This document shows positions 1-21,248 of a DNA stretch of 21,248 nt, piece by piece. This DNA is from Pigoraptor vietnamica (Eukaryota; Opisthokonta; Filasterea). Positions within the stretch are counted from its first letter, which is position 1, and every line of letters begins with the position of its first letter. A program made the translations under genes and the position numbers. The stretch lies in contig CALSCQ010002237.1 in NCBI GenBank assembly GCA_943704525.1, positions 1 through 21,248 on the forward strand, in the 5' to 3' direction. The notes below the pieces were generated by a model that saw only the letters and a list, made by a program, of their open reading frames with translations, did no database searches and was not told where the DNA came from.

Positions 1-14
1 TCCCCCCAAACAAA

Positions 15-34
15 ACACACACACACACACACAC
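15..34. repeat. (AC)10 microsatellite in cyclin Y intron 4
   Basis: Pure AC dinucleotide run on the plus strand, inside the part of the last visible cyclin Y intron (positions 1-85). On the transcribed strand it reads GT. An A run follows at 39-48. Confidence 0.9.
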
Positions 35-85
35 TCGCAAAAAAAAAATTCTTCCACGAGCCTCTATCGTTCCCATTTCACTCAC

Positions 86-1115
86 CGCAGCCGAAGTGAA
101 TATCAGCTTCAAAAAGTTGTAAATCGGCTCTTCGTTAGAGAGCATCCGCCCGTACTCATCAGCCGGCGTCGATTTCTGCAAAGAGACGACACACGCGCGT
201 GCGTGAGGGAAAGTGTGATATCCGGTATGTGTAAGATCGGTGTGCCGGAACACTGGCGCTCAACTACCGTGTTTCAGATATGCACAAACAGGAGCAAAGG
301 TGACCAAGACGGGGAACACTGTAGAGACACAGCGGGGCGTCAATCAAGGGGCGTTGCGCACGCACCGACAGCGGGTGCAACTTCTCGTCAAAAATGGGGT
401 CGAGGAGAGGGTCTGTCTCCTTGTGGCCCGCTCGCACGAAATAGTAGATGGCAGATGCCACGCTGGAGGAAAACTCGGTTTCAGCACGTACAGCACCAAT
501 GCGCACGCACACACGCATGCACAAACACTCACACACGCACGAACACAACATACGCGCGCACGCCACACACGCACTTATATAGACAAACACTCACTTACAA
601 CATATAACGCGCGCACACACGCACGCACAAACACACTCAGACACGCACGAACACAACAAATGCGCGCACGCAACACACGCACACATATAGAGACGCACAC
701 ATATAGAGACATACACTCAGTTACAACACATACTGCGCGCACGCCACACACGCACACATATAGAGACACACTCACTTACAACACATACCGCGCGCACACA
801 ACACACGGCACGCACCATCGCAATGTCTCGTCCATGTCTGGTTGCGATACGGTGCTGTCCACAAAAAGCGTCGAGCACGAGTTGGACTTTGTGACCTGCC
901 CGTCCGCACCCGAATGCATCGACCGCACCGACTCTCGTCGCGACGGTTTCCTCTCGGACGAGATGCGACGCATGCCGAGGTTTCGGTTCGGTTCAGGCAT
1001 CACCGACGTGAAGAGCGTGTCTTGCTGGCCGCCACCGCCTGCCACGGGACAGTCGATGACAGTGAGGACAACGACAGGCGCACAGTCACAACGCACGCGA
1101 CATAAAAGGAAAAGT

Positions 1116-1156
<41 letters not shown>

Positions 1157-1392
1157 GCGCGCGTGACAAAAAAGAAAGACGCGCAACACAGCACAGAATC
1201 CAAGTTCGCGAGGGGGAGTCTCAAAAATGAGAGCGCACCTTCTCGGTCGCTGATGTGTTGGACGCGCTCGTCCTCTTCCTTGTCAGCGGCCGCCGCCGTG
1301 ACGCTCACGCGCGGCGCCCCCATCGCAATCTCCTTCTCCGGGACGACATCTGCGTCCCCTCCCTTCGTGCAACCGCTGAATAGGTTGCCCAT
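86..1392 (-). CDS. CCNY: Cyclin Y (partial, 5' part; four exons, continues past the left edge)
   Basis: Cyclin Y recruits and activates CDK14/CDK16-type kinases at the plasma membrane. Exons on the minus strand are 1392-1239, 1038-816, 462-366 and 175-86; all joins keep frame and give 188 codons. The protein starts MGNLFSGC, an N-myristoylation signal with a nearby Cys (C8) suited to palmitoylation, as in animal cyclin Y. Family blocks appear in the expected order: HISDRE (residues 46-51), SNSCSTLFVDSTVSQP, the block CVASAIYYFV, FDEKLHPL, then the start of the cyclin box, IYNFLKLIFTSAA. The stretch between HISDRE and SNSCS is rich in Arg and Ser (RRIS, SRRES), plausible phosphorylation or 14-3-3 sites. 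The start codon has A at -3. The rest of the cyclin box lies outside the window. Identity rests on remembered family sequence and is strong; the exon joins are inferred. Confidence 0.93.
501..790. repeat. Alternating two-unit minisatellite in cyclin Y intron 2
   Basis: Two related CA-rich units of about 52-55 bases alternate. Unit X (about 501-552 and 609-660) carries GCACAAACAC and ACGCACGAACACAACA. Unit Y (about 553-608, 662-733 and 734-788) carries an ATATAGA core and ACTCA(C/G)TTACAACA. The order is X-Y-X-Y-Y; the second Y also doubles its ATATAGAGAC core. The array fills most of the intron at 463-815. Unit borders were set by eye. Confidence 0.75.
1119..1152. repeat. (AC)17 microsatellite in cyclin Y intron 1
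   Basis: Uninterrupted AC run on the plus strand in the intron between exon 1 (ending 1239) and exon 2 (starting 1038), followed by GC/AC-rich sequence. It reads GT on the transcribed strand and is likely length-variable between individuals. Confidence 0.95.
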
Positions 1393-2439
1393 TTTTGCGA
1401 AGACGCGGCGTGCGCAGCGTCGTGGTCTCCACGCGGGCGATTACGTGCGACTCCCACTCTGCGCCGATCAGCCGAAAGACACCCGGAGCAGAGCACCTCT
1501 GCGGAGAGGAAAACGCGCTCGAAGCGCTTCCTCAGACGGAAAGCAGCCGAAGGGCCATCGCCGAGGCCTTCAGGGTAATCGTACACAACAGCGGGCACGA
1601 GTGAGTCCCGGACGACCACCGGCAAAACGAAAGTCACTCGTGAATCAACCAGGGACTTTTTTCGCAATTTCCCTTCGGAGTGCGCGACGAGATGACGAAG
1701 TGCGCGCGGCGATTGTCGAGAAGTGTCGTTTGCCAAAACGCCGGTTCGAAAGTTTGGAGGTTTGCCCAACAACACACTCTAGCAAGCTCACACTGTTTCA
1801 CCTCTATTGACAGCGCGTGTTGTCTTCGAGAGAGAGAGAGAGCTCACGTAGTCTCACTGGTTGCACACTACACGCACGCACTCGGCGAACACGCGCGCAC
1901 ACACTCGCGACAATGCGCACGCACGCACACGCGCGCATACACACACACACACAAGCTGAGACACACCAAAGCCAATTCCTGAGCTGCCTCCACTTGGCCG
2001 CGACTATTAATTTGAACTGTTGGAAAATCTAACCAAAAAATCATGCATCTTTAAATTAATCGAGGGAGTGTATGGAACTGTGAAAGAACTTCCGAAAACG
2101 TGTCATCTGGAGAATTTCTTCAAATAAATTGCCTCGGGTGTAGTTCGGCAACAGGGGATGGCGCCAACCCCAGCTTCAAACGTGCAGAGTCCGTTTCACG
2201 TGCAGCTTCGGCCTCGTCTTCCTGATGAGTCGACTTGTTTATGGGGTGAGTGCGACTGGGGGAGCGGGGTGAGGGCATCGAGGATGCACCCTTTTGGTTG
2301 CGTCACGTGTGTGTTCGCTGCACTACCGAGGGATCCTACGCCATCAAAGTCTGCCCAAACACAGGTACGCGGAAGTTGAAAGATTCTCGCGTGTGGGAAA
2401 ATAGTAACAATTTACAGGACGAAGAAGGGCGGTTTCCGC
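1393..2439. other. Spacer: cyclin Y upstream region and DUF4246 downstream region
   Basis: About 1 kb between two minus-strand genes. It holds a GA run (about 1836-1850), a CA-rich tract (about 1866-1954) and an unusually AT-rich island (about 2003-2135) containing AATTTGAA at 2009-2016, the best place for cyclin Y promoter elements. A CACGTG lies at 2304-2309. Several open frames cross the region, but none matches a family I know or has convincing splice partners. A 5' untranslated exon or intron of cyclin Y is possible. Confidence 0.5.
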
Positions 2440-4375
2440 TCAGTGTTCGCACAACGAGAAGACGCGCTCGTAAATTTCCTTCGAGTGCATGTCGACAAAG
2501 TACTTGCGCTCGCGCATGAGCTTCTCGCGGTGCTCGCACGCGTCCTTGAAGGACATCGGGTAGTCAACGTAGGACATAATCTTCTCGAAGATCTCAATCG
2601 GAAGCTGGCGAATGTGGCCGCCGGCAAGGCGCACCGAGTCCACGAGCCACTCGCGCTGCTGCGGCGCAACGTTGAGCGTCGACAGCACGCGCGTCGTGGG
2701 ATTGACGAGGAAGAACACGAGAATCTTGCGCACGCCGGGCTTCGTCCGGTCGATGAGGCTGAACGGCGCCACGCGGTGCTGGAACGTGTTGGGGAACGAG
2801 ATGCAGCGGTCCTCCTTCGTGAGGATCGAGCCGATCGTCTGGTTGAGCGCCTCTTCGTTGCCGAGGCCGTAGATCATGTTCACGCCGCGGTCGTCACCCT
2901 CTGTAGAACAAACCAGCATCAATAACATGAGTGTAAGCCCAACCTCCACACACACAAGTCGAAAATACACCGTGACCAAACAGTCGAGACCCAAAGTGAT
3001 GCGCGCACTGGCAAATGGGTCGTTTGCGCATGAGTGCGCGTGCGTGTGTGTGTCAATGTGCGATGAGTGTATGTGTCCGTGCGTACTTGCGTATGAAAAT
3101 ACAGCAGTGCCGCGCGCAGCTACACTCACGCTCGTAGCCGGGCTCGGACACGGCGACGCGGAAGTGGAGGCGCGACTCGGAAATGTTCTCCGACTTGTAG
3201 TAGTAGATGCCCGATGCGATGATGTTCTCGTTCTCCATGCCCTCAATGTGCCACACGCCGCCATCGTACGACGGCTGCTCCGGCGTCAGCACAATGTTCG
3301 CGAGCTTGACAATCACCTGCACGCGCCGCCCCTTCAGGTCGATAATCCGCGACGGCGGCGGAGGCGCCTCAAACTCGGGGATGCGGGGCTCGCGCGGGAC
3401 GCGGTTCTCGTAGTCGTCGTCGTCTTCTTCCTCCTCCTCCTCCTCCTCTTCCTCGTCGTCGGCGTCGTCAAAGTCGGCGTCGTCGTCGTCGCCGTCGGCC
3501 CTCGCGCCCTTCCGCTTCTTGGGCTCCTCGTCGCTGTACGGCTCAGAGTCCGACCCCTTGTCGTACCACGAGTCCTCGTCCGCGCGAAGCCGCCTCTCCG
3601 GTCGCTCCAGGAGGTCCGTGAGCACCTTGTTGAAGAGCGGCACGAACTTTTCAAAGACGCGGCCGATCGTCTTGTACAGGCCCTTGTGGTAGTACGGGTG
3701 CAGGTTGTTGATGTACGACGCAATCTTGACGCTGCCGGACTTGTCGATATCAAACTCGGCGGGGAGCCACTGGTACTTCTCGCTCTTCGTATAGTAGTGG
3801 CCGCTGTCCGCGTCGTAGCGCTTCTTATAGTCGCGCTCCTTCGTCTTGCCGACGGTTTCGGGTTCGCCCCCGCCGATCTTGGCGAGAGGGGGAATCGCGT
3901 CCGTCTTCATCACGTGCGACACGCCCTTGACGTAGCAGTACAGCGACGGATGGACGAGATCCAGCACCTGCTTCTTAGAGCCGGGGTGCCAGTCCTTCAG
4001 CTCGTCGGGGATCGCCTCGAGCTGCGCGACGCCTGTGAGCAGCTCGTTCTTGAGCTCGTCGTCGACGAGGTTGTCGGCCTGCCACGTGCCGTCGACACCG
4101 CCCGGCTGCACGGGACCCTCGCGGATCGAAGCATAGTGCTTGACCTCCGCGAGAATGTACTTGGCCATGTTCTTCGACACGCCCTGGCGACGCGCCTCCT
4201 CGCCCCATTTCTTGATGATCTCGGGATTGTTAATCTTCTCGTACCACTGCGGCTTGTCGCGGATCGCCGCGCTATACTGGCACATGACGATTTCGCGCAG
4301 CGTGTAGGGCTCCACCTCCGCCCCGTGGAAGGGGTCGGGGAACTTGAGCGTGGAATAGTCCTCGACGACCGCCAT
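2440..4375 (-). CDS. DUF4246 family protein, possible 2-oxoglutarate/Fe(II) oxygenase-like
   Basis: Two exons, 4375-3130 and 2900-2440, joined in phase give 568 residues, within the usual DUF4246 range. The N-terminal part shows the family pattern (PDPFHG, PYTLREIVMCQY, KPQWYEKI), then WHPGS and VLDLVHPSLYCYV. The C-terminal part has WHIEGMENE, SENISESRLHFR, YEQGDDRG, FPNTFQHRVAPF and KPGVRKILVFFLVNP. DUF4246 is common in fungi and has no settled function. I see H376-x-E378, then H457 and R473, spaced like the metal and 2-oxoglutarate ligands of a double-stranded beta-helix oxygenase; that is inference. A tract at about residues 296-321 is almost wholly Asp/Glu, ten Glu in a row among them, and looks disordered. 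The gene is divergent from BABAM2. The start sits at the beginning of the conserved block. Confidence 0.88.
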
Positions 4376-4845
4376 TTCCCAATCTCCCGCGCGGGGAAGT
4401 GGTTAACACGAAGAGACGACACTCGAATTGAGAGTCTATAAAGTGTTTTGCAGGTAAAGCAATACGCAGACTCACGCACTGCACACACACGCACACACGC
4501 ACACACGCACACACGCAGACACAGACCGGCAGAGACCAGTCCTCCCACAGCGAGCATGTTGTCGTGTCAGCTGGCTGACAAACACTGGGCGACCACAAGG
4601 CTTACACTTTAATTTGAAAATGCGCACTTTTGTGGTGAAATTGGGACCCAGACTCAATTAATGCCGCACGGGACAAGAAACGCCCACCCGCCACACGTGA
4701 CTCAGTGACGACATTTTGGATATGATGTCATTCGTTTTCTGCGTAGGTGACGTCATGGTTTTTGAATCGCTGGTCATTTTTGTTCCCCGCCTCACACACG
4801 TTCTTTCAGACAAGTCTACTCCATCTACAGCACATTGGTCGCCTC
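4376..4845. promoter_or_regulatory. Divergent promoter between DUF4246 and BABAM2
   Basis: Some 470 bases separate the two start codons. A CA-rich tract lies at about 4480-4520 and AATTTGAA at 4611-4618. A cluster of classic binding-site shapes follows: CACGTG (4694-4699) overlapping TGACTCA (4698-4704), TGATGTCA (4723-4730) and a perfect TGACGTCA (4748-4755), about 90 bases before the BABAM2 start. These match E-box, AP-1 and CRE/ATF consensus sites. The sites are seen; their use here is inferred. Confidence 0.6.
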
Positions 4846-6469
4846 ATGGCTGCGACCGAGAGTGACGCACTGTTGGCCCTCCTTGCGCCCTTCGTCCAGT
4901 CGCATCTCGGCGCTGTGCTCGAGCACGAGTTGCCGTTCCATGACCAGCCCATAAGAATAACCGGCGTCGCTCCAAGGTGTTTTGATTTTTGTGTATGTGG
5001 GGGGAGGGGCGCGTGCGTCCGTGTTTTCGTGTGCCGGGCTCGGTGTGCGTGTGTCGCTTGTGTGTGTGCAGCCCCGTATCGATTTCATTGTGCTTACCTC
5101 GCTTGTTGCGGCAGTGACTGGGAGTACGCAAAACCAGCCGATCGTTTTGAACTCAGCATTCCGTACTGTCGGTCTCAGCTAACATGTGAGTTCTCAAACG
5201 TCCGTCACCGTCACCAGCACCTACTGAGCTCCAATGTTCCCATGTGAACTTTTGTGCCACCACCACACCTTACCACAATGGCTTATGTATCGGCTCGTAG
5301 GGGAGGTTATCTACGACTACCGAAGGCCACGTGCGCCACCGGACTTCATATTCTCGCGTGACCGCACTTTCATGCCTTCGTACACGTCGGTGCGTGCACT
5401 TCTCGACTGGCAACCCGACGAAAGCGATTGTTTGCTGCGAGTCATTCTCGAACTCATCGAGGTAAAGTGCCGTTATGCTTTCAGTTGCCCCATAGCACGC
5501 ACTGTTGTCGGTGCTATGTGTGCTCGGCACTGGAATTTATTTTGTGACACTGACTTTCTCGCTTCCTGCATTGCGTAGTAGAAGTGTACTCGTCGCCTCT
5601 ATTCGTGTCCTCAATGAGTGGTCTTTACCGTGCAGCTCTTTCGCGCGCACCACGTCGCCCTTGCGTCCAACCACCCATGCGAGGCCATTGTTCGCGCCGT
5701 CAACGACCTCACGCGACACGAGCAGCTGCGCGCGGGCTGTGTGCTTGTGGACACGAGTGGCGAAGCGCCGGCGTCAGCCACATTCCTCGTCCCTCTGCAG
5801 GCATCTCTCGGCGAGCTCGTCCAATCGGAAGCGCTGAGCCCCGCCGATTCGCAAATTGCCGTCGCCGTCACGTTTCGCCCGTACGAGTCGCAGATCTCCG
5901 ACGTCACCATGTCCGCGTCGTTCGTTGCAAGCGCCCCGTTGCGTGGGCTGCTGAGGCTGGATAGCCCTCCAAAATATGAGGGGCATACGACGCTCGAGGA
6001 CTACGCGCAGATTGCGCTCATTGGAGTTACGGACGCCGTGGAGGCGGCCATGGCGTCCCTCGTGAAGCGACGCGAGTACATTGCCGCTTTCCTCGCGATG
6101 TTCGGCACGTCGATCCTCGAGTTTGATGCGTCGTCGTACTTCATGGCGGCGGCGCTGATTGATCCCGGCCCTGGCCACTACCCATTCATACTCCACGTGA
6201 CCCTCGGGAAGGGCTTCCCTGCGGACAGGCCTGTTGTGGCAGCCATTTCCATCGCCATCGAAGAGCAGGCGCGCAAGGTGCTGTCGAGCGCGCCGTACAG
6301 CCCGTCGTGGCACTGCGACGAGATGATCGAGCGGCTCAAGTGGGTGCTCACGAACCGTGTAATGTGTGCGTTGCACTGGACAGTGGTGGGCGACTGACGC
6401 GCCCTCTTGTGTGCGTGCAGAGCGTACTTGGTGGACGAGGCCAAGAAGCCGCCGCCAAGCAAGCGGTAG
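4846..6469 (+). CDS. BABAM2: BRISC and BRCA1-A complex member 2 (BRE/BRCC45)
   Basis: BABAM2 is the scaffold that holds the BRCC36 deubiquitinase with MERIT40 and Abraxas/ABRO1 in complexes that cut K63-linked ubiquitin. Exons are 4846-4976, 5115-5185, 5301-5461, 5636-about 6363 and 6421-6469, giving about 379 residues (human 383). Matches include DRFELSIPY, then WEVIYDY and PPDFIF (around residues 68-85), and the second UEV-like domain with KRREYIAAF (265-273), FGTSILEFDA, GFPADRPV and PYSPSWHCDEM. The family is built of E2-variant domains that lack a catalytic cysteine. Exon 2 to 3 joining recreates the expected LTWEVIYD. The last donor is uncertain: 6364 gives a short Lys/Pro-rich end, while a donor at 6359 keeps another frame open to about 6579. 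The first of two in-frame Met near the conserved start was set aside because 4846 matches the family N-terminus better. Confidence 0.92.
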
Positions 6470-6922
6470 TCGATGGGAGCCTGTGGTTCGGCGCGTCGCA
6501 CGCGTCTCTTGGAGAGATTGGGTGCGTTTGCGAGCCCGACATCCACCCTATGCGGAATACACTCGATGCTGCAAATTGATTTGGGATGTGTGCAGTTTTT
6601 CTGTTATTTTGAACAACTCTTGAATATATTTGGGTCGAGTGAGTTTGACACAATTGCGGCACACACAACAGTCACACACACACACACACACAACACGCAT
6701 TCGCTCGACCAACAACAGATGCACTCATTGCCAAAGGCATCGCACACACAGACGAGTAGAGACAACTGCATGCCAACAGATTTGCACCTTACGCACACAA
6801 GAGAACCGTCTCTCGCACATCTAAGTGCCTGTTTCGATCCACCTGCCGCCCACGGGGGCGTGCGCAGCCTTGCGTGGATGCGTCCCCTTCATCACTAGTG
6901 CACCGCTCTTGAGTCTTGCGTC
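6470..6922. other. Spacer between BABAM2 and TRAPPC10
   Basis: No gene seen. The region has an AT-rich stretch at about 6570-6645 and an (AC)10 run at about 6673-6692 with further CA-rich sequence to about 6800, followed by GC-rich DNA up to the TRAPPC10 start. It must hold the BABAM2 poly(A) site and the TRAPPC10 promoter, but I see no AATAAA. Here the CA strand, not GT, is the sense strand of both genes. Confidence 0.5.
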
Positions 6923-9900
6923 ATGAGCGAGGGCGACGCACCGGCCGCGCTGTCGGTGCCGCAAGTGCCTGTGCGGCCCGAAACGCCCACGCCGGTCGAC
7001 GCAAAGCGGAAATGCCCCCTCATCTCTTGTGAGTTGCATCAGAAACATCCCTGCCCGTGTGACGAGGGAGAACGGGGTTCGCTGTCTGGTTGTGTGCGAT
7101 ATGTGCGCGACTTTCGAAGCGCGTATGGAGTGTGCATTTGTAGAATCTATCCGTGTGTTCAAGTCGGTGTTGATTGTATGTGCGTGGATGTGCGTGGGTA
7201 CGTGTGTGCTGGGAACGTGTGTGTGTGTGTGTGTGTGTATACTGTGTGTGAGTGCACGCATGCGCGGGTTTTCAAATAGTGAGTCTGAGCGCCTTCCACT
7301 CATCGCAGACCAAGACGACTATGGCCTGTGGCCGCAGTTGGCCAAGGGCTTTGCGCGGCGCATCCCTTTTCCCAACGTCACGTGGCGCAGCATGTCAACC
7401 GGGCGCCAGCAGCTCATCGAGTCGCTCAACGTGGAGCTCGTCCCCTTTGTGCCAGGTCTTGCGTCCAGGTCGGACGGCATGGGGGGCGTCTCGCTCGATC
7501 ACCAGCAGCCCTTCGTGCACCTGTACCTTGTCAGCTGCGACGTGGGTGGCACTCTTCCATGGTGCTAGACGTGTGTTTGTGTGTGCCTTGTTGTGATTGA
7601 CGGCGGATGGTCGCGGGTCACATCCGTCTAGTGTCAGGAGCACACTCGTGTGTACGTGCAGGTTCTTTCGCTAACTTGCTACCGCCGCGCCCACCCGCGG
7701 ACGCACAGGACGTGGACGTGTACAAGCAGTCGGTGAAGAACAAGATACAGAACTGGCTCAACTACTTCAAGGACAACTCCAAGATCGAGTGGCTCATTGT
7801 GTATGTCGACATAAAGAAGGGCCTCGCGCAGAAGCTGCCCAAGCTGCAGCTGAGGAGCGTCCTCGACAAGCTCAAGAGCGATTTTGCCTCGAAGCCGGAG
7901 AGGTGAGAAAATGCGCGCACTCTGAAATTTCTGTGTGTGGTCGTGATGAAGAGTGCAGTAGTTTGTGCGAGGAGACACACTCTTCTTGCGTACTAATTTG
8001 CGTGTATGAAGAGCCGCGTGTGTGGCGGGAGGGAAGACAAGTCCGTTTTATTTTTGTCGATCGCGTCCTCTCGGTTTGGCCCTAACCTTTGAACTCGCAG
8101 GTGCGTCCAGTTGCGCATCAGTGACAACGACGCCAAGGCGGAGGAGACGTGGGAGGACGTCATCAGCCGCATCCGCGACAGCGTGCTTGCTTGCTTCGAC
8201 CGCCGCGTGGCGCAGTACGAGGACGACATCAAGCGCAATCTCGGCAACAGGCAGCTGCCGGGGTGGAACTTTCTCAACTTCTTTATTCTCAAGGTGAGGG
8301 AGGCAGTAATCCCGGACGCCATTTGCGCGCTGTCCTTTGTCCCTTTAGTAAGTACTGGTTTGTGCCTCTATGTATGCTTGTTGTTGACCACCGCTCATGC
8401 GCAGGAGGGACTTGCGTATGCGTTTGAGATGATGCGGCTGTACGAGGAGGCCTTCTTCCAGTATGTCGAGCTCGAATTTCTCTACAGACAGCTCGAGTCA
8501 ACGGAGAACGCGCAGCAGCCCGGGGGTGCGTTCTGCCGTGCCTCCCTTCCTCTGTTGCTTTATCGGAGTCGATGGACGCGCGTCCATGATTTTGTCTGAT
8601 CCGACATCTTTGGTTTGCTGTGTGCGCTGGCTGATACTTTGCCAAGTCGATCTGTCACGTGGCCGTGCGCGTGGCTCACGTGCTTGTTTCGCAACCCGAA
8701 TGTGTTGTGCTTGTGTTTCCATCGTCTGTGTTCTGATGCCACCTTTCGCACCGCCAGGCGCACTGCCGGTGCTCGAGGTGTTTGGCGGTACGGACGTGGG
8801 AGATGACAGCGGCAGCGTCCTTGACCTTTCCCGAAAGGCTTACCGCGACATGATACGGCGCAACACGATCAAGGCGTTTGACTTTCGCAACTACCTCTTT
8901 GCGTGCCAGTTCCGCCTGCTCCTCCAGCTGGGTCGACCGGTGGAGGCTGCCGAGCGCGGCCACGCGTTTGCGCTGTCGACCGGTCGCAAGCTGCGCGAAA
9001 ACGTGTCGCGGCTCAAGCGGCATTTCGCCGAGTCCTGGATGTTCTCCTTCTGCACCGAAATTGTTGTCGAGTGCGACCGCGTCGTCCCCACACTCCAGCC
9101 GCCTATGGAGTCCGAGTTGCGCGCGCGATACCAAATGCTGAGGGGAGACCTCGCATATACGGCGCGCAAGCGACTCGACGCCCTGGGCATTGCGTACGGC
9201 CACTTGCCGCGCGAGCTGCCTTTCACCTTGAACGCAGGAAGCGCAGCTTCCACCGTCGCTACGGCGCCACAGACGCCTGCAGTTGCGCCACCGACGGCGC
9301 TTGCAGTGACGGAGAAGTCGGCGGCGAATCCGGCAGACCCACTCGGCGCGCTTGGTGGAGGTCCCCTCGCCGAAGAGGCCGGGGAGAAGATGGTGGAGTA
9401 CCCGCCAATTGCGGGCGGCGTCCCCGCAACGGACGACGGGCGACTGACGAACGCCATCCTCCTCAACGCCGTCTCGAGCACGAAAGAGTTTGATCGGCTG
9501 TACGAGGACTGCAGCCGTTCGGCCGCGGAGAGCTATGCGGCGGCCAATCGCCAGCGCGGTGCGCTGCGCGTCAACAGGGATTTGGGCGCGCTCCGCTTCT
9601 GTCGCAAGGAGTACGAGCGCGCCGAGTGGTACTACGGCAACGCGCACCGCACGTTCGCGGAGGACGGGTGGCTGTCGCTCGACTACGACATTCGGCGCGA
9701 CCTTGCCTTCTGCCAGCGCCGCCTGGGGAAACTCGAGGACTGCGTCGACTCGTACACGGCCTTGCTCGCGCCCGCGTCGTCGCTGTCTGCCGAGGAGCGC
9801 CAGTCGACGTTTGACGACCTCATGGTCATCGCGAAGCAGGACCTCCAGTCGATGTACGCGCTGGCGGCGGGTCCTTTGCTCCGCCCGACGGTCGTGTGTG

Positions 9901-12900
9901 CGCGGCGCGTGGAGAGCGACGGCAGCATCCCCGGGACACCGCGCGCGTCGGCGGCCGTGGTGGAGGCCGGTCGCATGGCCCGGTTCGACATTGGAGACGC
10001 GATTGAGATTGAGATTGTGGTGGATTCTCTGTTTCCGGGCCTGCTGTCGTGCGAGCGCGCGGGACTGGCGCTCGCGCGGCGGGACGTTAGCAGCATCGTG
10101 ACGACGACGCCGTCCGCTGGGGCGAGCAATGCGAACCTTGACGCTATGTCCCTTGGGCAAGGGGTGCGTCGAAACAGCGACGTGTCCGCCTCCCCGTCAC
10201 GCGTGCGTGCGGAGACAGACGAGGTCGGAAAGCCCGCGCCGGTCATTGCGACGCCTGCGGCGATCACCGCTGCATCGACGGGGGCGCCACCTCAAACACT
10301 CTCTCCCGCAACGGTGGCGCAGCTGTCGGCGGTGGCGGAGATGACGGCGGCGGAAGACAACTCGCTTAACGAGTCGCGTCGGTCGCTCGCCCACGAGACG
10401 CGGTCGATGGGAATGGAGATTGAGTGCGTGGAAGTGCGGCCGGGCGCCGTTAACACCCTCGTGTTCAGCGGGATTGTCACGTGCGGAGGCGACTTCGTCT
10501 TTGATCGCATATGGGTCGACGTCGGAAACCTCCGCCTCACGCGTGCGCTGGGGCCATCGGACGGCCTGCGCGGGCTCACATTTGGTCCCACGCGCAGCAG
10601 CGTGACTGTCGAGGTGTTTTTGCCGCCGTCGACGGCGTTGATCGCGGGATCCCCTGTGAACATGAACATTGCCATACGCACAAACGCCGACTCGATTGTC
10701 GGGGGCACGCTCGAAGTCTCGTCCTCCACGGGGCTCCGCATCGATCCCGTGCCGTCCGGATTTCTGTTGATATCTCGGCCGGTTGCACAGCCGCAGCAGC
10801 CACCGCAAGAGTCGTCGCAGCAACCTTCTAGCGGCTCGGCCCCCGCCGACACGCCCGTACCGCCCGTGCGCATGTCGCGGGGGAGCATTCGGCGGCCGTC
10901 TGTTGCGGCGCTGCCCATTGCGCAGATCAATGCCATGCAGGCGGGGACGGCGCGCCGCGTGCCGTTTTCGTTCACGGACAAGGTGATGCAGCTTCCGGAG
11001 TGCGGGCCGAACGAAGTGGTCGAGTTTGCGCTGCCGGTGACCGCCACGGAGAGGGAGCTCAAGCACAAGGTGGGCTGGCTTTTATATTTGACATTGTGTG
11101 TCACGCATGGACCGTGAATGACAAGTCAATTCTTTGTGTGTGTGTGCGCGCGTGTGAAGACTCTGTTGCGGGTTGGATGCGGGAGACACCATGTCGTCCA
11201 CACGTGTGTTATTTGAGGAAATGGGGTTCGCATGCCTCTAATCTGAACGCGCATGGCCTGTGCAGGTGACGTTCGTGCTGAGCTACACGAAGGCGACGGC
11301 CGAGGCTTTCACGCGGCGGCTGACGGTGCCACTGCGCTTCGTCAATCCCTTCGCTGTTTCGTCATCCGTTGTCTTCGATGGCACGCGGTGAGCGATACAT
11401 GAGCAAATTGGTTGCTGTCTAATGTTACAATTACTCGTTGTTGCACGCCTATGAAGGCGCGTAGCGTGTGTTTCTGTGATCGAGACAACATTCGTTTGTT
11501 GTATTCTCACTCACGCGAAACGCGCCCCAATCGCTCCAGGATAATCGCGCCCGCACAGCTGCAATGCGCGGCGCCGGTGCCTCTCAAGCTGCTTGGCTTT
11601 ACCGCTGTACTCGCCGAGGGATCGTCTGCTGGGTGGAAGGTCGCAGACGTCGCCGCGAACAAGGCCGTGGAGGGCATTGTGGGTTGTCGATTGTTGCTGT
11701 GCTGATTTACGTGGGGAACGCAATGCGTTGCGTTTTACGTGGGGGTCTTACTGACACTGGTGACGTGGGGGAACGCGGTCTTACTGACCTTGCCATTCTT
11801 AGGTGGCGCTGCCGCAGCAGAGGATTGGAACTGTTTCTCTGATTGAGAGAGACGAAGGTAAGATTGCTTGTCACGTGCTGCAGCCGCTGTTTTGAGCGCC
11901 TTGCGACCATGACGACACATGTGCGGGCTGACCTACCCTTTCGGACACTCGCTGCATTGCTGGCTCGTTGCCTGATGTTGCGCGAAAACGCCGAATGAGC
12001 AACACCGACCAATCACACAATGGCTCGTATTTTTGGACGTCCACTCGCAGAGGCGGCGGCGGAGGCGGCCACGCGCCCTGGCGTCGACAACCTCGTGCTG
12101 ACGGCGACCATGACGTACACGTTTTTGCGGCAGCAGCGCGAGGAAATATTTGCGTACTCGTTTCCAATTGCCATTGAGTTGCCGAGGGTGCGTCTCATGC
12201 TCGCGCCTGCGCAGTGTTTCAAGTGTCCGTGCGAATGGTCCGATGGTTTTCTTGTTCGTGCACGTGGGTGCTTCAGCGCTTTTACTGTGCCACGTTCCTC
12301 ACTGCTGTCCTTCCTCGCGACAGACTATGTACTTGGTCGATCTGAGGCCAGCGGGCGACAATAGCGAGCCGCTCTGTGTCGGATGCACGCGCCCGTTCAC
12401 CCTGGAGATCACGCGCGTGGGGCCTGTTCCTGTGCGCTCGTCCCTCCTCTACGAAATTGCGCTCGACAGTGCCATGTGGGCGGTTGTTGGGCGTCGCAAG
12501 GGCCTCTTGCCGCCGGAGGAGGTGGGTGTAAGTAGCATGTCGCCAGATGTGCACGTTGTATGGCGTGGGTTTTGCGTGTGGTGCGCAGAGCGTAGTCATG
12601 GATAATACGTTGCCTTCTCTTCTGACGATTCGGTTTGTGTGCCACAGCACGCGACAGTGACCGTCGGGCTTCTTCCGCTGACCGCCGGACGCATTCCATT
12701 GCCCGACGTCGACCTGTCTGTTGCGGACCCCCTACCAGCTGCTGGGTGAGTGCGTGCGTGGTCCTATATTATCGCATTTCATGATCCTGTCTCTTCGTCA
12801 CAACCGGCACCGGACTGACTCGAGGTGTTTCGGCCGCAGTCCCGTGGGGAATCTCCGCAGCAACTCGTTGGCGTCCGCGTCTGTCTCGAGCGGCGGCACT

Positions 12901-13083: not shown

Positions 13084-13296
13084 GGGCCGAATAAGAGAAC
13101 TTGCGCAACTAAGCAGTGGATCTTTGCGATAGTTTGGCGAGGGAACGTGGGATATCGTACGATACCGTCAATCCGACACGGCGCTCCATATATTGCCCGT
13201 CGAGAACAGAGGGCATTGCATGCGGCGTCCACGCACACACGCAACGCACAGCGCAGCGAAGCAACTTCGCACATGGCCATCGTTCGGGCGACGTTC
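13084..13296. other. Short spacer between convergent TRAPPC10 and SerRS
   Basis: Only 213 bases separate the two stop codons, so both 3' untranslated regions and poly(A) sites must fit here or overlap. I see GAATAAG just after the TRAPPC10 stop (about 13089-13095) but no perfect AATAAA on either strand, and nothing that looks coding. Confidence 0.5.
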
Positions 13297-15636
13297 TCAC
13301 TTCTTGGCCTTCTCCGCCGCCTTCTCGTTCTCCTCGTCGATCGGCGCCTTCTTGACAAAGGGGATCGAGTCGCGGTACATCGGGGGCATGTACGGCTTGA
13401 GCACCTCGGGGATAGAAATGCCTGCGAGTTGAGAAAGAAGAAGCGCAGTCGTTGAGTTACAACCGAGGATGACGTTTACGGATAGTAACAAGGACAACAT
13501 TGATACGTTCGCAAATGCACAGTCTCGTCCACGAAGTCGCAAACAGTCCCGCTTACAATTACGAACAGTCGCACACACAATCGCACACACAGTCGCACAT
13601 ACAGTCGCAGACGTCGCACGCAGTCGCACACACAGTCCCGCACACAGTCGCACAATACAGTCGCACGCAGTCGTACACAGTCACACGCACTGTCCGCGCA
13701 CACGCACCCGTCTCGGTCTGGTGGTTCTCCATGATGGCGCAGATGGCGCGCGTCGTCGCACACAGCGTGCTGTTCAGCATGTGCACAAACTCGGGCGCCT
13801 TATCCAGCTTCTTCACGGAGCCGTACCGAATCCGAAGCGCGCGCGACTGGTAGTCGGTGCAGTTCGAGCACGAGACGAGCTCTCGGAACGCGCCGCTGCC
13901 GGGGAACCAGCCCTCGAGGTCCAGCTTCTTGGCGGCCGCGTTGTTGAGCTCACCCGTCACAATGTTGACGACCCGGTAGGGGATGCCGAGCGACTGGAAA
14001 AACTCCTCGGCGTTGCCGATCATCTCGTCCATCATTTTCCACGAGACGCCGTCGTGCGGCGACGTGATGCAAAACTGCTCCACCTTCTCAAACTGGTGCA
14101 CGCGAAAGATGCCGCGCGTGTCGCGCCCGTGCGAGCCGACCTCCTGCCGGAAGCACGTCGAGATGCCCGCGTACCGCTTCGGGAGCGTCGCCACGTCCAT
14201 CCACTCGTCCCGGTGGAACGCGGCGATGGGCTGCTCGCTGGTCGCGATAAGGTACTTCTCGTCGGTGCCCGCGTCCTCGGCCTTCTCGCTCGCCTTGCCC
14301 GTGACCTTGTAGAGCTCCGTGTCAAACTGCGACAGCTGCGCGACCTCCTGCATGACCTCCTTGTTCATGAAGAAGGGCGTGTACAGCGGCGTGTAGTTCT
14401 TCAGACCGAGCAGATGCAGGCCGTAGTTGATGATCGCAAACTCGAGGAACACGGCCGGCCCCTTCAGGTAATAGCCGCGGTTGCCCGCCGTCACCGTACC
14501 GCGGTCCGTGTCCACGCCGTCGATCATCACGATCAGGTCCACGTGCGAGTACTTCTTGCGCGTCTGGGTATCGCCGAACGTCCGCTCAATGCCGTTGTTC
14601 GCCTCGTCGTTGCTGACGACGCACGTCTGAGGAGTGACCACAAACAAGACGCATGAGACTGCTTGCTGGCAAAAACGAGTGCAACAAAGACCGGTCGTCG
14701 TGCACCCCCTCACGCTGGCTTCCTTCTCTTGCACTAGCGCGCAGTCAGTCACCAGACACCTCCACTACACAACACACGCGAAGACGGCGAGAGCATCCAT
14801 GAGCCGCAACGCACGCCGAGCACGCACTCCCACCTCGTGGATGATGTTGCCGACGCCCTTGAGCATCGCAAAGCGCTCCTTGTCGGCGGCGTCGGACTGC
14901 GCCTCGGTGCGCTTGACGTCGTCCTCGATCAGCTTCTTCACGGCCTTGATCTGCGTCACCGTCAGCGCCTTGAGCCCCTCCGCCGTGAGCCCCGTCAGGT
15001 TCTCCGAGATGGACGCCGGCACTGCGTCGGAATCGCCCACGGCCTCCTTCGCCTGCATGCATGCACAGAGAGTGGAAGAGACCACAGCCGTTAACGCCAA
15101 GGACCCACAAAGAGCCGTTACAAGCACATCGCAGCCACTCGAAGACGACCGGTGGATGGATCTCAAAGGCCTTCCCCGCGTGGAATGAACAGCGGCCACC
15201 CAAAAGCACTCTGCAAATGAAATGAACAGCGGCCACCCAAAAGCACTCTGCACCGTGTCGAGGCACCTTCATCTTCTCGCCGACGGCCTTGCTGCAGTTG
15301 TTCGCCATGCGGTTGAGCTGGTCGACGCGGAATCGAACTGTCGGCGACGCAGAGGGGCAATAATAGCATGAGAACGCATCGTGAAAACAACAACACGTCC
15401 CTCCAGCAGTGGCGGTGCATAGCCTCAGGCGGACGATGCACTCGCGATGTAAACAGTACGTCGTCACGGTCCCCGCACGACCCCATACTCGCACACTCAC
15501 GCTGGCGCCATTCCTTGTCCTTCGCAATAATCCTGTCAACGATGCCGACATCCGCATAGCGCTTCCGCTGGCTCTCGCGCACGGCCTCTGGATTCCCGCC
15601 GTTCTCCTCGCGGAAGAGGTTGATGTCGAGCACCAT
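13297..15636 (-). CDS. SARS1: Seryl-tRNA synthetase, cytosolic
   Basis: The enzyme charges tRNA-Ser with serine. Five exons on the minus strand, 15636-15501, 15337-15267, 15052-14834, 14626-13708 and 13421-13297, join in frame to 489 residues (human about 514). It starts [14 protein letters not shown], the usual eukaryotic cytosolic N-terminus, followed by the tRNA-binding coiled-coil arm (about residues 40-140). Class II features are plain: motif 1 around YTPLYTPFF (220-228), the serine-site TSEQP (271-275), motif 2 [21 protein letters not shown] region (from 301), and motif 3 with [20 protein letters not shown]. The end is short and Lys-rich (EKAAEKAKK) and lacks the longer human tail. No presequence is present, which supports a cytosolic role. 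It faces TRAPPC10 tail to tail and shares a divergent promoter with the LON-domain gene. Confidence 0.97.
13560..13700. repeat. Degenerate GTCGCACA-type tandem repeat in SerRS intron 4
   Basis: The 286-base intron (13422-13707) holds about ten imperfect copies of an AGTCGCACACAC-like unit of about 8-14 bases on the plus strand. The sense strand therefore reads TGTGTGCGACTG. Copy lengths and spacing vary, consistent with slippage. Confidence 0.8.
15184..15251. repeat. Recent tandem duplication in SerRS intron 2
   Basis: A 31-base block (starts AATGAACAGCGGCC, ends AAAGCACTCTGC) occurs at 15184-15214 and again, with no mismatch, at 15221-15251, a period of 37 bases. Perfect identity suggests a young event. 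On the sense strand both copies carry TGCAGAGTGC, a possible acceptor, but neither is needed for the gene model, which uses the acceptor before 15052. Confidence 0.9.
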
Positions 15637-16263
15637 TTTTGCAGGCGACTGACGGGCGCAACCGCACGGCCCTCCACACAGATGCAAGTTACAAAATATC
15701 AACTATTGTTAACTCTCAAGGAGCGAGTCAACTTCTGTCGTGTGTATCGCGTGTGTGTGTGTGTCTGTGCGCGTGTGCCTGTGCGTGAAACAGTGTGACG
15801 TGTGTGTGTGTGTTTCGTGGGTCAGCTTGACGCAAGGACCATGTGCGGAGCCATTCTTAGAACACACGTGACATCACGTGATAGAACCAGACAATTTGAA
15901 TTTGAGCCTAATATTTGTGGCAGATTTCCAACTTTTTTTCAGTGTGTGAGTTTCGGGTGTGTCCAGGCCAATCACGTGACTTGCCGCAAAAAAAAAACGG
16001 CCAGCCGACGTCGGTTGAAAATGCAACGGCTGTTCGAAGAGGCGCTACTTGGAACTCCAAGAACGACAGTATACTGACGACAGTGCGCCGCGGAAGCGAA
16101 CTCGGTCTGCCTCGTCTGCCTTCGGGCGGCAGCATTTGCAGAGGCCGGTCACATTAACGGCTTTTGTTGTGCATGTGCCACGAGTGATTGCCGTGCCCTT
16201 TGTTTGATGTGACGACTGCCGTGGTCGTGCGCTACCCACCGTCGGCTCGTCGCAGCTTGGAAA
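15637..16263. promoter_or_regulatory. Divergent promoter between SerRS and the LON-domain gene
   Basis: About 630 bases between start codons. A GT-rich stretch covers about 15738-15815. Two CACGTG palindromes lie exactly ten bases apart (15865-15870 and 15875-15880), one helical turn, as CACGTGACATCACGTG. A further CCAATCACGTGAC at 15968-15980 joins a CCAAT box to the same E-box. AATTTGAA is at 15893-15900 in an AT-rich patch. These are textbook shapes for bHLH-zip (USF/MITF-like) and NF-Y factors; binding is inferred. Confidence 0.6.
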
Positions 16264-17373
16264 ATGACGCTGCCGACGGTGTCGTCGCATTCTGCGCGCG
16301 TGATGGCGTGTGCGCGTGCCCTCGTGCTCGCGTGTGGGGTGCCCCTGCGCCGCACTCGCTCGGACGCGCACAGCATGCGCCACTACTCGACGTCCGATGG
16401 CGACCATGGCGAACCGAAACGAGCGAGCGACATCTCAGGGGCGCTGCGCGTAGAGGATGCAGCGGACGCCGCGAAGGCCACGGAGCTCAAGCTAGGTACT
16501 TTTGCCAATTGCTTTTTGTGGCCAAGTGATTCAAGTGTTGGTGCAGCAGCCGCTTGACACCAAATCTTCCGATGGGGCGCAGGGCTCTTCTACAACGAGC
16601 GGATATTTTTTCCGTCGGACCGCGTGGTCGAGTTCCGCTTCGTCGACGAGGCAAGCAAGCGCATGATCTTGCACGCGAACGCGACCACCAAACTCTTCGG
16701 CCACGTCGGCGGCATGCGAATCGACGCCGTCACGACGCGCGAGACGGAGCGAAAGGGCATCCGTGCTGTGGGTCGCATCGTGAGCCCCGACGTCGGCTGC
16801 ATGATGCGCATATGGAATTGCCACCGGGAGCCGTCGGGTCCCATTGCAGTCATGTGCAGCGCGCTCCAGCGAGTGCGCCTGGTCAACGCCGAATGGGTCG
16901 CAGAGGGGCGCTACAGGCGATCGAGCGTCACGACGATCGACGACGAGCCGATGGAGGACGAGGACGAACTGCGGGCGCAGGACAGCTTTGAGCAGCTGCG
17001 TCAGCGAGTGAGCGCGTGGAAGGCGAGTCAGGAGGGGACTTTCTTGCGCGACGACGTGCGACGCAACATGATATGGCTGCTGGGCGCGCGACCGGGCATC
17101 GCGGGAATGGACTGGCCGACATTTTCGTTCACTGTCGCTGAAATTGTGTCGTCGCTCAGGTGCGTGTCGTCGCCGGTCGCAGGCAGTGGCCGTGCGCGCC
17201 GGAGTTGCGGGACTTCTATATAATGATGCTGAAATGTGGTGCGTGCGTTTCTTAATCGCAGGCGTAACCAGGTGCATCCCGACCGCCAGTATGAGCGGCT
17301 TGTTGCCATGCTTGCGACGACAGACACGGCGGAGCGACTTCGACTCACCGTCGAGCACATGTTGATGGATTGA
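16264..17373 (+). CDS. LON substrate-binding-domain protein, probably mitochondrial
   Basis: Three exons, 16264-16495, 16583-17159 and 17262-17373, join in frame to 306 residues. The N-terminus is rich in Arg, Ser and Ala with almost no acid, and contains RHYS (residues 39-42), a typical R-3 processing site (cut after Y41), so mitochondrial import is likely. Exons 2 and 3 look like the PUA-like N-terminal domain of Lon: the opening FYNERIFFPSDRVVEFRF, then KLFGHVGG, the block RKGIRAVGRIV and ALQRVRLVNAEW, followed by the helical end TTDTAERLRLTVEHML. No AAA+ ATPase or Ser-Lys protease part is present, and the protein ends there. Stand-alone LON-domain proteins are known (LONRF- and cereblon-related, bacterial small Lon-like proteins); substrates here are unknown. 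The start has A at -3. Confidence 0.82.
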
Positions 17374-17670
17374 GCTGTGTGTAGATATGACCACTGTAAA
17401 TAGCACTTCAATTGCCTCTACTGAAGCCGTTGGCAGTTATGCGAGACCACGAAGCAGACAGCAGCCTCACCTTGTTGGACCCTGACGGCGGCCGGCGCGC
17501 GCGCGTGTGTGAGAAGCAGTGGCGGCGTTGGAAAAATTTGTACTCGAACCAATTGATGGATTCGAACGCACCATTCGCCAATTGTTCGGAGGCCGCATAA
17601 CACCCGACGACCACGACCGGCGGGGAATTTTTTGTTCGCTCTCACTGTGCGTGGCACTTCACTGCCGAAA
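17374..17670. other. Short spacer before the beta-helix gene
   Basis: About 300 bases. TGTAAATAG lies 22 bases after the LON-gene stop and could be part of its 3' end signal. A 62-codon open frame (17412-17600) has no recognisable features and probably is 5' untranslated sequence of the next gene. Confidence 0.4.
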
Positions 17671-20600
17671 ATGCGGTTGCGCGCCTGTGCCAGCGCCCTC
17701 TTGCTGCTGTGCGTCTTCTCTAGTCGCGCCCTGCCAGCGGGCGCAGACGAAGACGTCGATCTCCTGACGGGCTGTCCCGCCTTCTTTTTTGGCGGATGGA
17801 CGCAGAATGCAAACTCCTCCGGCGGCGCCGCGGCAGACGACGCCGCCGTTGCCGGCCACGTGCGCAGGCTGCGCGTTGGGTGCATATTCGCCACACTCTT
17901 TGACCGCAACGCTCCGTACGACGGGAACGCGGCCGACGTGACGATCAACAGGTGTGTGTGACTCTGTGTGCCGGTATGCCGTGCACGGGCAACCGTGACA
18001 ATGACGGCCGCCGGCGCTTCGAATTACACGGCCGGAACGATAGCCGCCAGAGGCGCGCGCTTTGCTTCTTTCGTTTCAGAGTCACGTGAAGAAGCTCAGT
18101 CTTGTTGTCAGTGTTTTATCGCGTCTTAAATCTCCCAGCGCTAGCGCTCAGTACTGACTGAGCCGTGAGACGGTGCGCACCGGCGGTAGCACGCGTACGG
18201 CAGCGGCCTGTCGTGCACCGACTCTATCTTCTCTTCATGACTCTAATTTTCGTGTGGAATTCTATGGACATGATTGTACAGCGCATCAACCCAGCGCTCC
18301 TCTCCACTGCTTGCAGACGGCTCTTTTCGTGCGTGCCCTCGAGCACGATCCCCGACGTGTACGAAGTGCTCTTCGACAGATTCGACCCGACGATTGGCTC
18401 CGAAATGTATTCCGTCGCCCTCATCAAGCTCGCCGCCGACATCGACGTCGACGCCAATCTGACCCCGCACGTGTACGATGTGCTCACCATTGTGCACGTA
18501 GAGGGCCTCGAGTTCCTCTCGCAGGAGGCCGCGTTCGCCTTTAAACCAACATCGCTGTCCGACGACCCCTTTGCGACGGTCACGATCTATCGGCGCGTGG
18601 GGCGGCAGCCAAGCGCCCTCACGCGCGTGCAGTACGCGCTGTGTGCGGGACAGCCCGTGATCGAGCTCGTGCCGGGCGTGTACAGGGACCTCGAGTGGGA
18701 GGTGCCGTCCGCAGTGCAGGTGCACACCGCGCCGTCCGCTGCCCCGGAGGAACGCGCCGTGTTTGACTGTGGGGGGGACGACGCGGCGGACAACGCGGCA
18801 TTTGTCGCCGCCGTCGACGCGGAGGGTCCCGTCGCCTTTTCGCGCTTCGCCGTCACGCGCTGCAGCAGCGGCTTCTCGGCGGCCGGGTTCGCCGAGTCGT
18901 GGGCGTGGCGGGGTGTGAAGGCGGTGGATCTCGCCCTCACGGACTTTGAGGCTTACGACAACAAGCTAAAGATGGACAGTGACGATGTGACGCGCGGTGC
19001 GGGCCACCTCGTCCACACGCTCCCGGTGTTGCCGGACGGAAACGTGGCGTGGCCGTGGAATGGTCCACCTTTGGTTGCGGTGAGCGGCTCGCTTGTGCTG
19101 CGCGAGTGCTCGGTGGTAAGGACGCACACGGGAGACGGTGGCGGGGGAAGGATTGTTGCGGTGGTGGAGAATGGCGGCCTGCACGTCGCCATCCAGCAGT
19201 GTCGCTTTGTCGGTACGCGGCGGCCACGCTCCGTTTATTTGTGTGTCAGTGTGTGCATAATGTGTGTGTGCACTGCGTGTGTGCGTGTGCGCGCGCGTGT
19301 GTGTTTGTGTGTGTGCGTGTGTGCGTGTGCATGTTCGGTGATTCCAGGTCGGTGCGTGTGCATTAATTCATTAATAACGTCCGAAATCCCACAAAACCGC
19401 AGACAACAGCCTCGGCAACACGCTTTATTTCGCCAGCTCCACGTCCGCGGACATTGCCCATTGCGTGTTTGATAACTTGGCGACCCTCTACGATGGCTTC
19501 GGGCTGTGCATTTATGCGGTGACAGCGGCCGTCGCCCTCACCGACACGGTCATACGGAACGAAGGGCTGTTCTTTGCGCAGCAGTCGCAAGTGATCATGG
19601 ACGGCTGCACGGTGGAGAACGCGAGGCCTCGCTATTTCCCCACCCTCTTCTCCTCTTCTTACCTCGTCGCAACGTCAACGCACTTTCGGAACTGTTCGGC
19701 GGTCCGATTGTACAACGCCGGAGGGGCCGTTACCGCAAATGGCTTCTCCGCCCTCAGCATGGAAGCGTGTACACATGTGTCTTCGAGAGTTGTTTCGCGG
19801 ATTACCCGGGGTCAGTTGGGGGTGCCATGCGCGCCGTCGACGGCTCTCTCATTGCCCTCCGAAACTGCAGCTTTATTGGAAACATGGTGGGTCAGTCGCC
19901 ACGCTCTTTCCCTCTCAGCCTGTGTGTACGTGCCCCTCTGCTGACGCCTCGCTATCGGCGCCGCCGCACTCCAGGCAGAGAACGGCGCTGCGCTGGCGTT
20001 AGTGGATGAGATGGGCCACGCGATTTCGCCGTTTGCATTGCTGGACGGGTGTGCGTTTGTGGGGAATGTGGCCTCGCAACGCGGTGGCGCAGTGTATCTC
20101 GAAGGGGTGGGTGTTCCGCAGCCCGTCTGGAGCAGTTGCCTCGTGTGTGTGTGCGCTCACGAATGATCCTTTTCCGCGCGCTTGTATTGAGTGTGTGGGT
20201 GTTGTGGCATCAAATGGTGTGTGTGTGTGTGTTGCGGAGGAGGGGGGTCACAGCCATGCCTGCCAGGTGCATGCATAATACGCAGTGTATCTTGCATGGT
20301 GAGAGCGCCGCAGTGAAATTATCACTGCGCGAGCGGCATGTCGCTCGCAGAGTGCGGTTGTCAGTCGCATCTCCATGTTGAGAACCCTCTTTCCTCTGCA
20401 GGCGGAGGGCTTCTCTACCACCTTTATGGCGACAGATTCGGTGCTTGGAGAGAATGTCGCAACTGTCGGCGGCGCCGTTTACGTCGGAAACGGCGCATCC
20501 CTGCAATTGGAGCGCTCGACACTGCGCGACAATGCGGTACGTCAGACCCTCGCCGTGGCGCAGTATTTGTAGTGGCGATGGCAAACACCGTGTGTGCGTG

Positions 20601-21248
20601 TGCGCGTAAGCGAGTATGTTCATATGCTTGACGTGCGCCCAAGTCTCACTAACGCGGGCCCACTGTGCAGGCCTGCTACGGCGCCGCTGTCGCTCTCGAA
20701 ACGCCAGACCGCGACTGGCACACGGACAATCCAGTGGCCATTTCGGACTCGCTGCTGCAAAGCAACGCGGCGTCCGTTTTGGGCGGTGCTTTGTACGTCC
20801 TCGTCGCCGGATCGGAGGCGACAACACGTGTCGAGTTGACGCGGATAATAGCGGTCAACAACAGCGCCACGCAGGGCGGCTTCCTGGCCACTGCCGCGAT
20901 TCTGCCTCCCCAGCAAGACAGCCACTCCACAGTTCACATCGTCGACTCGCTCGTTTCGAGTTCGAGGGCTACGGACGGCGGCGCGCTGTCGCTCGATCTC
21001 AGTGCTGTCGTTGCCGCATCAAACACTTCGTTTTTAGGCTCGTCGGCGTCCGCCGGCGGCGTTGCCAAGCTGACAAACGCCGCGCGCCTCACGATGTTTG
21101 GCTGCACCGTGGTCAGCGCGTCGTCGGTGGGAAATGGCGGCGCCGTTCTTCTCTCGTCTGCCGCGTCTTTCACAGCCACCGAAACGCACTTTCGGCTGTG
21201 CGACGCGGCTGATGCCTCTGGTGGGGTCATCCACGCGAGCGGCGAAGC
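17671..21248 (+). CDS. Secreted beta-helix protein with Pmp-like GGA(V/M/L) repeats (partial, runs off right edge)
   Basis: Visible exons: 17671-17951, 18317-19212, 19403-19886, 19975-20106, 20402-20536 and 20671 to the edge. Residues 1-25 form a signal peptide (MRLRACASALLLLCVFSS..., likely cut after AGA). A segment of about 250 residues without known match follows, then VIELVPGVYRDLEWEVP, a typical entry to a right-handed beta-helix. From exon 3 on, the protein consists of coils of about 25-40 residues with CxFxGN and GGA(V/M/L) motifs: CSFIGN, CAFVGN, RGGAVYL, VGGAVYV, LGGALYV, GNGGAVLL. These match the FxxN and GGA(ILV) signatures of chlamydial polymorphic outer membrane proteins and similar protist surface proteins. 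Introns exclude a bacterial contaminant. Exon 3 changes frame near 19768-19778. An outer-surface or wall role is likely; the C-terminus, with any membrane anchor, lies outside the window. Confidence 0.8.

Follow-up and report, generated by a model that had tools for sequence, protein, structure and literature searches.

The stretch of DNA considered here, referred to as the window, comprises the 21,248 nucleotides (nt) of contig CALSCQ010002237.1 (contig C925 in our numbering) of the filasterean Pigoraptor vietnamica, whose assembly (GCA_943704525.1) spans 32.5 Mb in 1395 contigs; the G+C content is 59%. Its genes include four with Pfam matches, namely to DUF4246, a TRAPPC10-type domain, the class II tRNA synthetase core (seryl-tRNA synthetase, SerRS) and BRE (BABAM2), and two, cyclin Y and a beta-helix gene, whose scanned parts gave no Pfam family match and which keep the names of a preliminary description of the window. 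That description had held that GT/CA tracts in introns read GT on the sense strand, in about 11 of 12 cases by eye, and that repeat strand predicts gene direction. We find this partly confirmed: the sense-GT lean of introns is real, yet weaker than first stated and not GT-specific, and it is quite probably a by-product of a general surplus of T relative to A along the coding strand of introns. The tracts concerned, together with two spacer controls, are the following, each with the basis of its placement in brackets.

15..34, minus strand: 20-nt sense GT tract in cyclin Y intron 1-85, truncated by the window edge (run list, intron model)
463..815, minus strand: cyclin Y intron with 12 pure sense GT runs of 6-7 nt (intron model)
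1119..1152, minus strand: 34-nt sense GT tract in cyclin Y intron 1039-1238 (run list, intron model)
2901..3129, minus strand: DUF4246 intron with 10 nt of sense GT (2947-2956) and 10 nt of sense CA (3044-3053) (gene strand by Pfam)
5059..5068, plus strand: 10-nt GT run in BABAM2 intron 1, hand-set at 4977-5114 (gene strand by Pfam BRE)
7217..7250, plus strand: GT runs of 22 and 8 nt in TRAPPC10 intron 1, 7029-7308 (gene strand by Pfam)
7578..7585, plus strand: 8-nt GT run in TRAPPC10 intron 2, 7542-7708 (run list, intron model)
7932..7939, plus strand: 8-nt GT run in TRAPPC10 intron 3, 7903-8100 (run list, intron model)
11135..11146, plus strand: 12-nt GT run in TRAPPC10 intron 6, 11070-11265 (run list, intron model)
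13572..13634, minus strand: three 8-nt sense GT runs in SerRS intron 13422-13707 (gene strand by Pfam)
19261..19315, plus strand: three GT runs of 8-10 nt in beta-helix gene intron 19213-19402 (run list, intron model)
20217..20232, plus strand: 16-nt GT run in beta-helix gene intron 20143-20401 (run list, intron model)
6660..6750, no strand: spacer control, CA runs on the plus strand between the plus-strand genes BABAM2 and TRAPPC10, opposite to the intron direction (run list, gene model)
15751..15813, no strand: spacer control, two 14-nt GT runs on the plus strand between SerRS (minus) and a LON-domain gene (plus) (run list, gene model)

The 32 introns of the window, one of which (1-85) is truncated by its edge, were listed by hand from the gene model and the sequence, and 10 nt next to the donor and 15 nt next to the acceptor were removed from each. 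For BABAM2 introns 2 and 4 the boundaries placed by hand are wrong (no GT...AG), and neither carries a run of at least 6 nt. Pure runs of at least 8 nt leave ten introns with sense GT only, none with CA only and one with both, and at a threshold of 6 nt the numbers become 17, one and two. Details of the preliminary description change at this scale. The DUF4246 intron, named there as the one CA exception, is mixed, with a 10-nt run of each kind, and the tract in intron 1 of the beta-helix gene (17952-17960) is mostly the donor site itself. In cyclin Y intron 463-815 the 12 pure GT runs measure 6-7 nt, and none reaches 8 nt. This last intron also contains tandem repeats of an imperfect kind, their periods being about 55 and 73 nt, a minisatellite of short CA-rich pieces.

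Beyond the window, genes were called on 30 sequences totalling 267.6 kb, about 0.8% of the genome (the window, 24 stretches chosen by place and 5 kinase loci; the rRNA locus was excluded), with a home-made Viterbi gene finder that allows GT-AG introns and whose coding states were trained on the genome's own long open reading frames. Since it uses a single strand-symmetric model for intron and intergenic DNA, the strand of a gene is set by coding sequence and short splice-site matrices. Each of the 70 genes that have high-confidence introns scored better on its called strand, the smallest margin being 23.7 log units, and the longest exon matched Pfam on the called strand (E <=0.001) in 24 of the 35 genes whose high-confidence introns bear runs of at least 8 nt (7/10, 3/9, 7/8 and 7/8 by batch), in a check for which the called strand alone was scanned, 4 of the 24 genes had been chosen for their kinase domain and a few matches were weak. 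Within the window the models agree with those described before, except that BABAM2 exon 1 was missed and cyclin Y and DUF4246 were fused. Of 399 modelled introns, 378 remained after removal of those lying at the end of a stretch or containing N, and 275 passed a high-confidence filter on length (40-350 nt), splice-site scores at both ends and size of the flanking exons (at least 45 nt); these make up 35,431 nt after the same trimming, and intron counts below refer to them unless otherwise stated. Kinase exon pairs, considered as an intron set resting on homology only, were dropped, as equal open-frame lengths suggest that many pairs share one frame. Strands come from gene models, and "flank" below is not equivalent to untranslated region. 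Over the 419 introns of the last training pass the donor consensus was GGTG(C/A/G)GT, cut after its first G, with G at +3 in 0.83 and at +5 in 0.93, and the acceptor consensus was YGCAGG, cut before its last G, with G at -4 in 0.65 as an extended acceptor motif. The assembly also holds a bacterial-type small-subunit rRNA (E 1.2e-130; G000:C295:19544-21505) on a contig of 39 kb that is probably this organism's mitochondrial genome.

In this sample 80 pure runs of at least 8 nt read GT in sense and 17 read CA; by intron, 40 carry GT only, 11 CA only and one both (p 5.7e-5). Beyond the window the bias persists in weaker form, with 32 introns carrying GT only, 11 CA only and none both among 251 (p 0.0019), and the full set of 378 introns gives 54, 22 and 2. 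Runs of at least 6 nt number 233 GT against 52 CA, a ratio of 4.5. For longer runs, 16 GT introns stand against 5 CA at 12 nt or more (p 0.027; 12 against 5 outside the window, p 0.14), and 9 against 5 outside the window at 16 nt or more (p 0.42). When bootstrapped by locus over the 28 other loci, the intron ratio outside the window, 2.9, ranges from 1.7 to 5.5, and the run ratio at 6 nt or more, 4.0, from 2.6 to 6.2; 17 of these loci lean to GT, 3 to CA and 8 are tied, and by gene 26 lean to GT and 6 to CA. The 24 Pfam-matched genes have 25 introns with GT only against 10 with CA only (p 0.017; 16 genes against 6, p 0.052), and the 11 genes without a match 15 against 1, the two groups not being significantly different (p 0.14). 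Because the Pfam-matched genes show 25:10, the true GT:CA ratio may be nearer 2.5 than 5. The direction given in the preliminary description was thus right in the window and in the genome sample, and its 11 of 12 represents a favourable local sample of what is roughly 3:1 by intron and 4:1 by run elsewhere; likewise, repeat strand does predict gene direction, in about 75-80% of run-bearing introns rather than in 11 of 12. A rough whole-genome pattern of donor, run and acceptor within 100 nt, in which neighbouring donors list some places twice, found 98 GT (41 in a reversed-pattern control) and 19 CA (control 6) with 8-nt runs, or 57 against 13 with controls subtracted, and 21 GT (control 9) and 3 CA (control 0) with 16-nt runs; the high GT control count shows that GT-rich surroundings alone suffice for pattern matches.

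Coding sequence (151 kb) contains no GT and two CA runs of at least 8 nt, and half-spacers oriented by their neighbouring gene have 19 GT and 23 CA runs of that length upstream and 13 and 24 downstream, with no significant lean by unit, which agrees with the earlier statement that spacers show either strand. Among runs of at least 6 nt, the first 150 nt or so past the stop codon lean as introns do (28 GT against 10 CA in three bins), and upstream flanks are about even (28 against 24, then 31 against 35). Beyond about 150 nt past the stop codon the short runs flip to CA (19 GT against 44 CA in three bins), which may reflect the start of the neighbouring gene's domain.

Base composition points the same way as the repeats. 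With GT/CA runs of at least 5 nt masked, introns have a T/A of 1.80 and a G/C of 0.96; T exceeds A in 251 and falls below it in 18, and with G above C in 121 and below it in 146 there is no excess of G over C. The sign of T minus A gives the gene direction correctly in 250 of the 275 introns (22 wrong, 3 ties), better than repeat strand does. Other motifs lean too: CT and GA runs stand at 35:10 (at least 6 nt) and 10:2 (at least 8 nt), and T5+ and A5+ runs at 63:6. For runs of at least 6 nt, an order-1 Markov null built from masked introns at three masking levels predicted GT:CA values of 3.6-5.4, and 4.5 (233:52) was observed; for runs of at least 8 nt it predicted 5.3-9.1, and 4.7 (80:17) was observed; for CT:GA it gave 7.0-7.4 against an observed 3.5, and for T5+:A5+ about 10 against 10.5. 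In absolute number, runs of at least 8 nt exceed the null about 11-40 fold for GT and about 20-46 fold for CA, and as both lie so far above it, which slippage would lead one to expect, growth appears roughly symmetric, favouring neither strand. The mean masked skew is 0.136 in CA-bearing introns (n=12) and 0.288 in GT-bearing ones (n=41).

These observations, namely the skew itself, the parallel lean of further motifs and the fact that GT:CA does not exceed the null, make it quite likely that the sense-GT lean follows from intron-wide T over A. GT/CA repeats would be born and enlarged through slippage with little strand preference, background composition would decide which strand reads GT in sense, and runs of GT, CT and T would arise in T-rich, A-poor introns at a higher rate than those of CA, GA and A. 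Since CT and T runs lean alike and composition predicts the GT:CA ratio, a GT-specific mechanism is unneeded. Several points weigh against this account. A shorter run of the null expected lower GT:CA ratios, 3.8 and 3.4, slightly below the observed 4.5 and 4.7; the introns used to fit the null may contain remnants of old GT repeats, and these would raise the GT:CA ratio that it predicts; tracts of GT or CA far outnumber CT or T tracts of similar length, so that GT repeats are prominent in themselves; and the case is built from DNA and gene models.

The preliminary description had looked for the cause in UG-binding proteins or RNA looping. In its general form such a function would mean that introns retain sense (GU)n for its help in splicing, through a UG-binding protein, a poly(UG) fold or pairing, and that sense CA is removed, which we regard as improbable. 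The shortest length for the poly(UG) fold is said to be 23 nt (PMC12962679), and 12 GT runs against 4 CA runs reach it; introns with a GT run are also longer (median 200 nt, against 126 nt without a run). Yet GT orientation is in no excess over composition, CT and T runs lean like GT, and splice-site scores show no difference between GT-run and run-free introns (p 0.82 for donors, 0.63 for acceptors). With the null matched and the CT and T lean in view, a GT-specific push was rejected as the main cause, and it is equally improbable that GT tracts are kept beyond composition for a (GU)n RNA role, such as a poly(UG) quadruplex or an intron-marking UG-binding protein, with CA being purged. Looping fares no better: in fish introns, CA/GT pairing replaces U2AF2 (as reported via PMC12962679), which needs CA and GT within the same intron, and although Pigoraptor likewise has intron GT repeats, both tracts occur together in just 1 of the 52 run-bearing introns, that of DUF4246, so that pairing inside one intron was rejected as the main cause. 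Protein searches of the genome were too blunt to be informative: TDP-43_N had no match, but the model matched none of the 14 control genomes either, and CELF was not searched; hnRNP-L/PTB had no match and U2AF gave 18 sub-threshold exon matches. The named control genomes are bacteria and archaea. One minus-strand locus, G000:C794:4314-5427, has two sub-threshold same-strand exon matches to the U2AF large subunit model, its C-terminal part included, and is a candidate U2AF2. Still less credible is that the GT-like 5′ splice site (GTGNGT) seeds repeats by slippage and so forces sense GT. The donor consensus GTG(A/C/G)GT, the contact of some tracts with the donor (window positions 17952 and 20143) and the position of 52 of 80 GT runs in the 5′ half of introns suit it, but the 10 nt nearest the donor had been cut off each intron when runs were counted, the median distance from the donor to the start of a GT run is about 80 nt, and the 3′ half still leans (28 GT against 8 CA, by subtraction), for which reason donor seeding was rejected as the main cause.

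If the repeats follow composition, the question passes to the source of the T excess, for which we place RNA-level selection, U-rich and A-poor introns aiding intron recognition, at slightly better than an even chance over transcription-linked mutation. The latter, also raised in the preliminary description and compatible with the by-product account, proposes that strand-unequal lesion formation or repair leaves T over A on the coding strand and that repeats follow; it is a serious contender, if somewhat short of an even chance. Masked T/A is flat across intron quarters (1.82, 1.73, 1.91, 1.74) and over intron length classes (1.74-1.87), and differs little by rank (1.58 in first, 1.86 in internal and 1.68 in last introns). 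Transcription-coupled repair is expected to give constant asymmetry along the transcribed region (PMC10946897), an expectation that the flat intron skew fits. The skew is also present in the near flanks, where T/A is 1.41 (3′) and 1.34 (5′) in the first 100 nt, 1.12 and 1.10 at 100-200 nt, and 0.95 (3′) and 1.10 (5′) at 200-400 nt. Synonymous sites are inconsistent. Pooled fourfold sites have a T/A of 1.47, with T above A in 70 genes and below it in 15, but the excess comes mainly from Leu (T/A 7.6) and Val (4.6), with Ala at 0.76, Thr at 0.97 and Gly at 1.00; in NAN codons the T share (0.165) equals the A share (0.169), and fourfold and intron skew are unrelated by gene (rho -0.03, n=49). Codon selection could hide a mutational skew, and the conflict at synonymous sites is thus not decisive. 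A-ending Leu and Val codons are strongly avoided in the sampled coding sequence (151 kb). A further point against transcription-linked mutation is the G/C of 0.96 in masked introns, without the excess of G over C of human and mouse introns (PMC10030826).

Comparable asymmetries have been described elsewhere, and for the surroundings of human genes a lean to GT on the coding strand has already been published (PLoS One 2013, PMC3566118). In that study, the AC/GT microsatellites lying no more than 5 kb from human start sites number 2051 AC and 3021 GT on the coding strand; T and GT reach their highest density downstream of the start, A and AC upstream. The human GT:AC ratio, both sides of the start pooled, is about 1.5, compared with 3-5 in Pigoraptor introns, and human AG/CT repeats are given there as having no lean, whereas CT:GA in Pigoraptor introns is 35:10. 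In arthropods, the density of intron tandem repeats differs from that of their reverse complements (BMC Genomics 2010, PMC3152781): poly-T, CT and CTT exceed their reverse complements in Daphnia introns, GT is denser in introns than in coding sequence or spacers in all three genomes, and in spacers, as shown for trinucleotides, a repeat and its reverse complement have similar densities. D. melanogaster and A. mellifera differ in detail. That introns have more T than A on their coding strand is known from a review (PMC10030826) and from vertebrates (PMC2927911); Pigoraptor shares this with human and mouse, whose introns also have G over C (PMC10030826), which masked Pigoraptor introns lack. A preprint (PMC13174678) cites as earlier knowledge that human transcribed-region repeats lean to T-rich units; the human lean described there is strongest within 100 bp of the affected exon, whereas the base skew of Pigoraptor is flat along introns. 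Pigoraptor thus shows T over A outside repeats, a lean in several T-bearing motifs and no lean of half-spacers at 8 nt or more, as in T over A intron asymmetry, and lacks the G over C of mammal-type transcription-associated bias.

At the gene level, apart from the tracts, the LON-domain gene next to the second spacer control lies at 16264-17373 and carries the LON substrate-binding domain (PF02190, E 9.7e-10).

The lean therefore seems ordinary, a known sort of strand asymmetry and not a dedicated repeat signal; it is one more case of a familiar kind, here with a high ratio and in a genome that is compact and G+C-rich. Intron repeat orientation can be a simple read-out of strand-asymmetric base composition, and the composition null is the bar that any claim of GT-specific function must beat. 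The sign of T minus A in introns is a strong and simple cue of direction that could aid gene finding. Finally, this genome, whose large skew of T over A comes with no G over C, stays level along introns and fades outside genes, is a good setting in which to part RNA-level selection from transcription-linked mutation.

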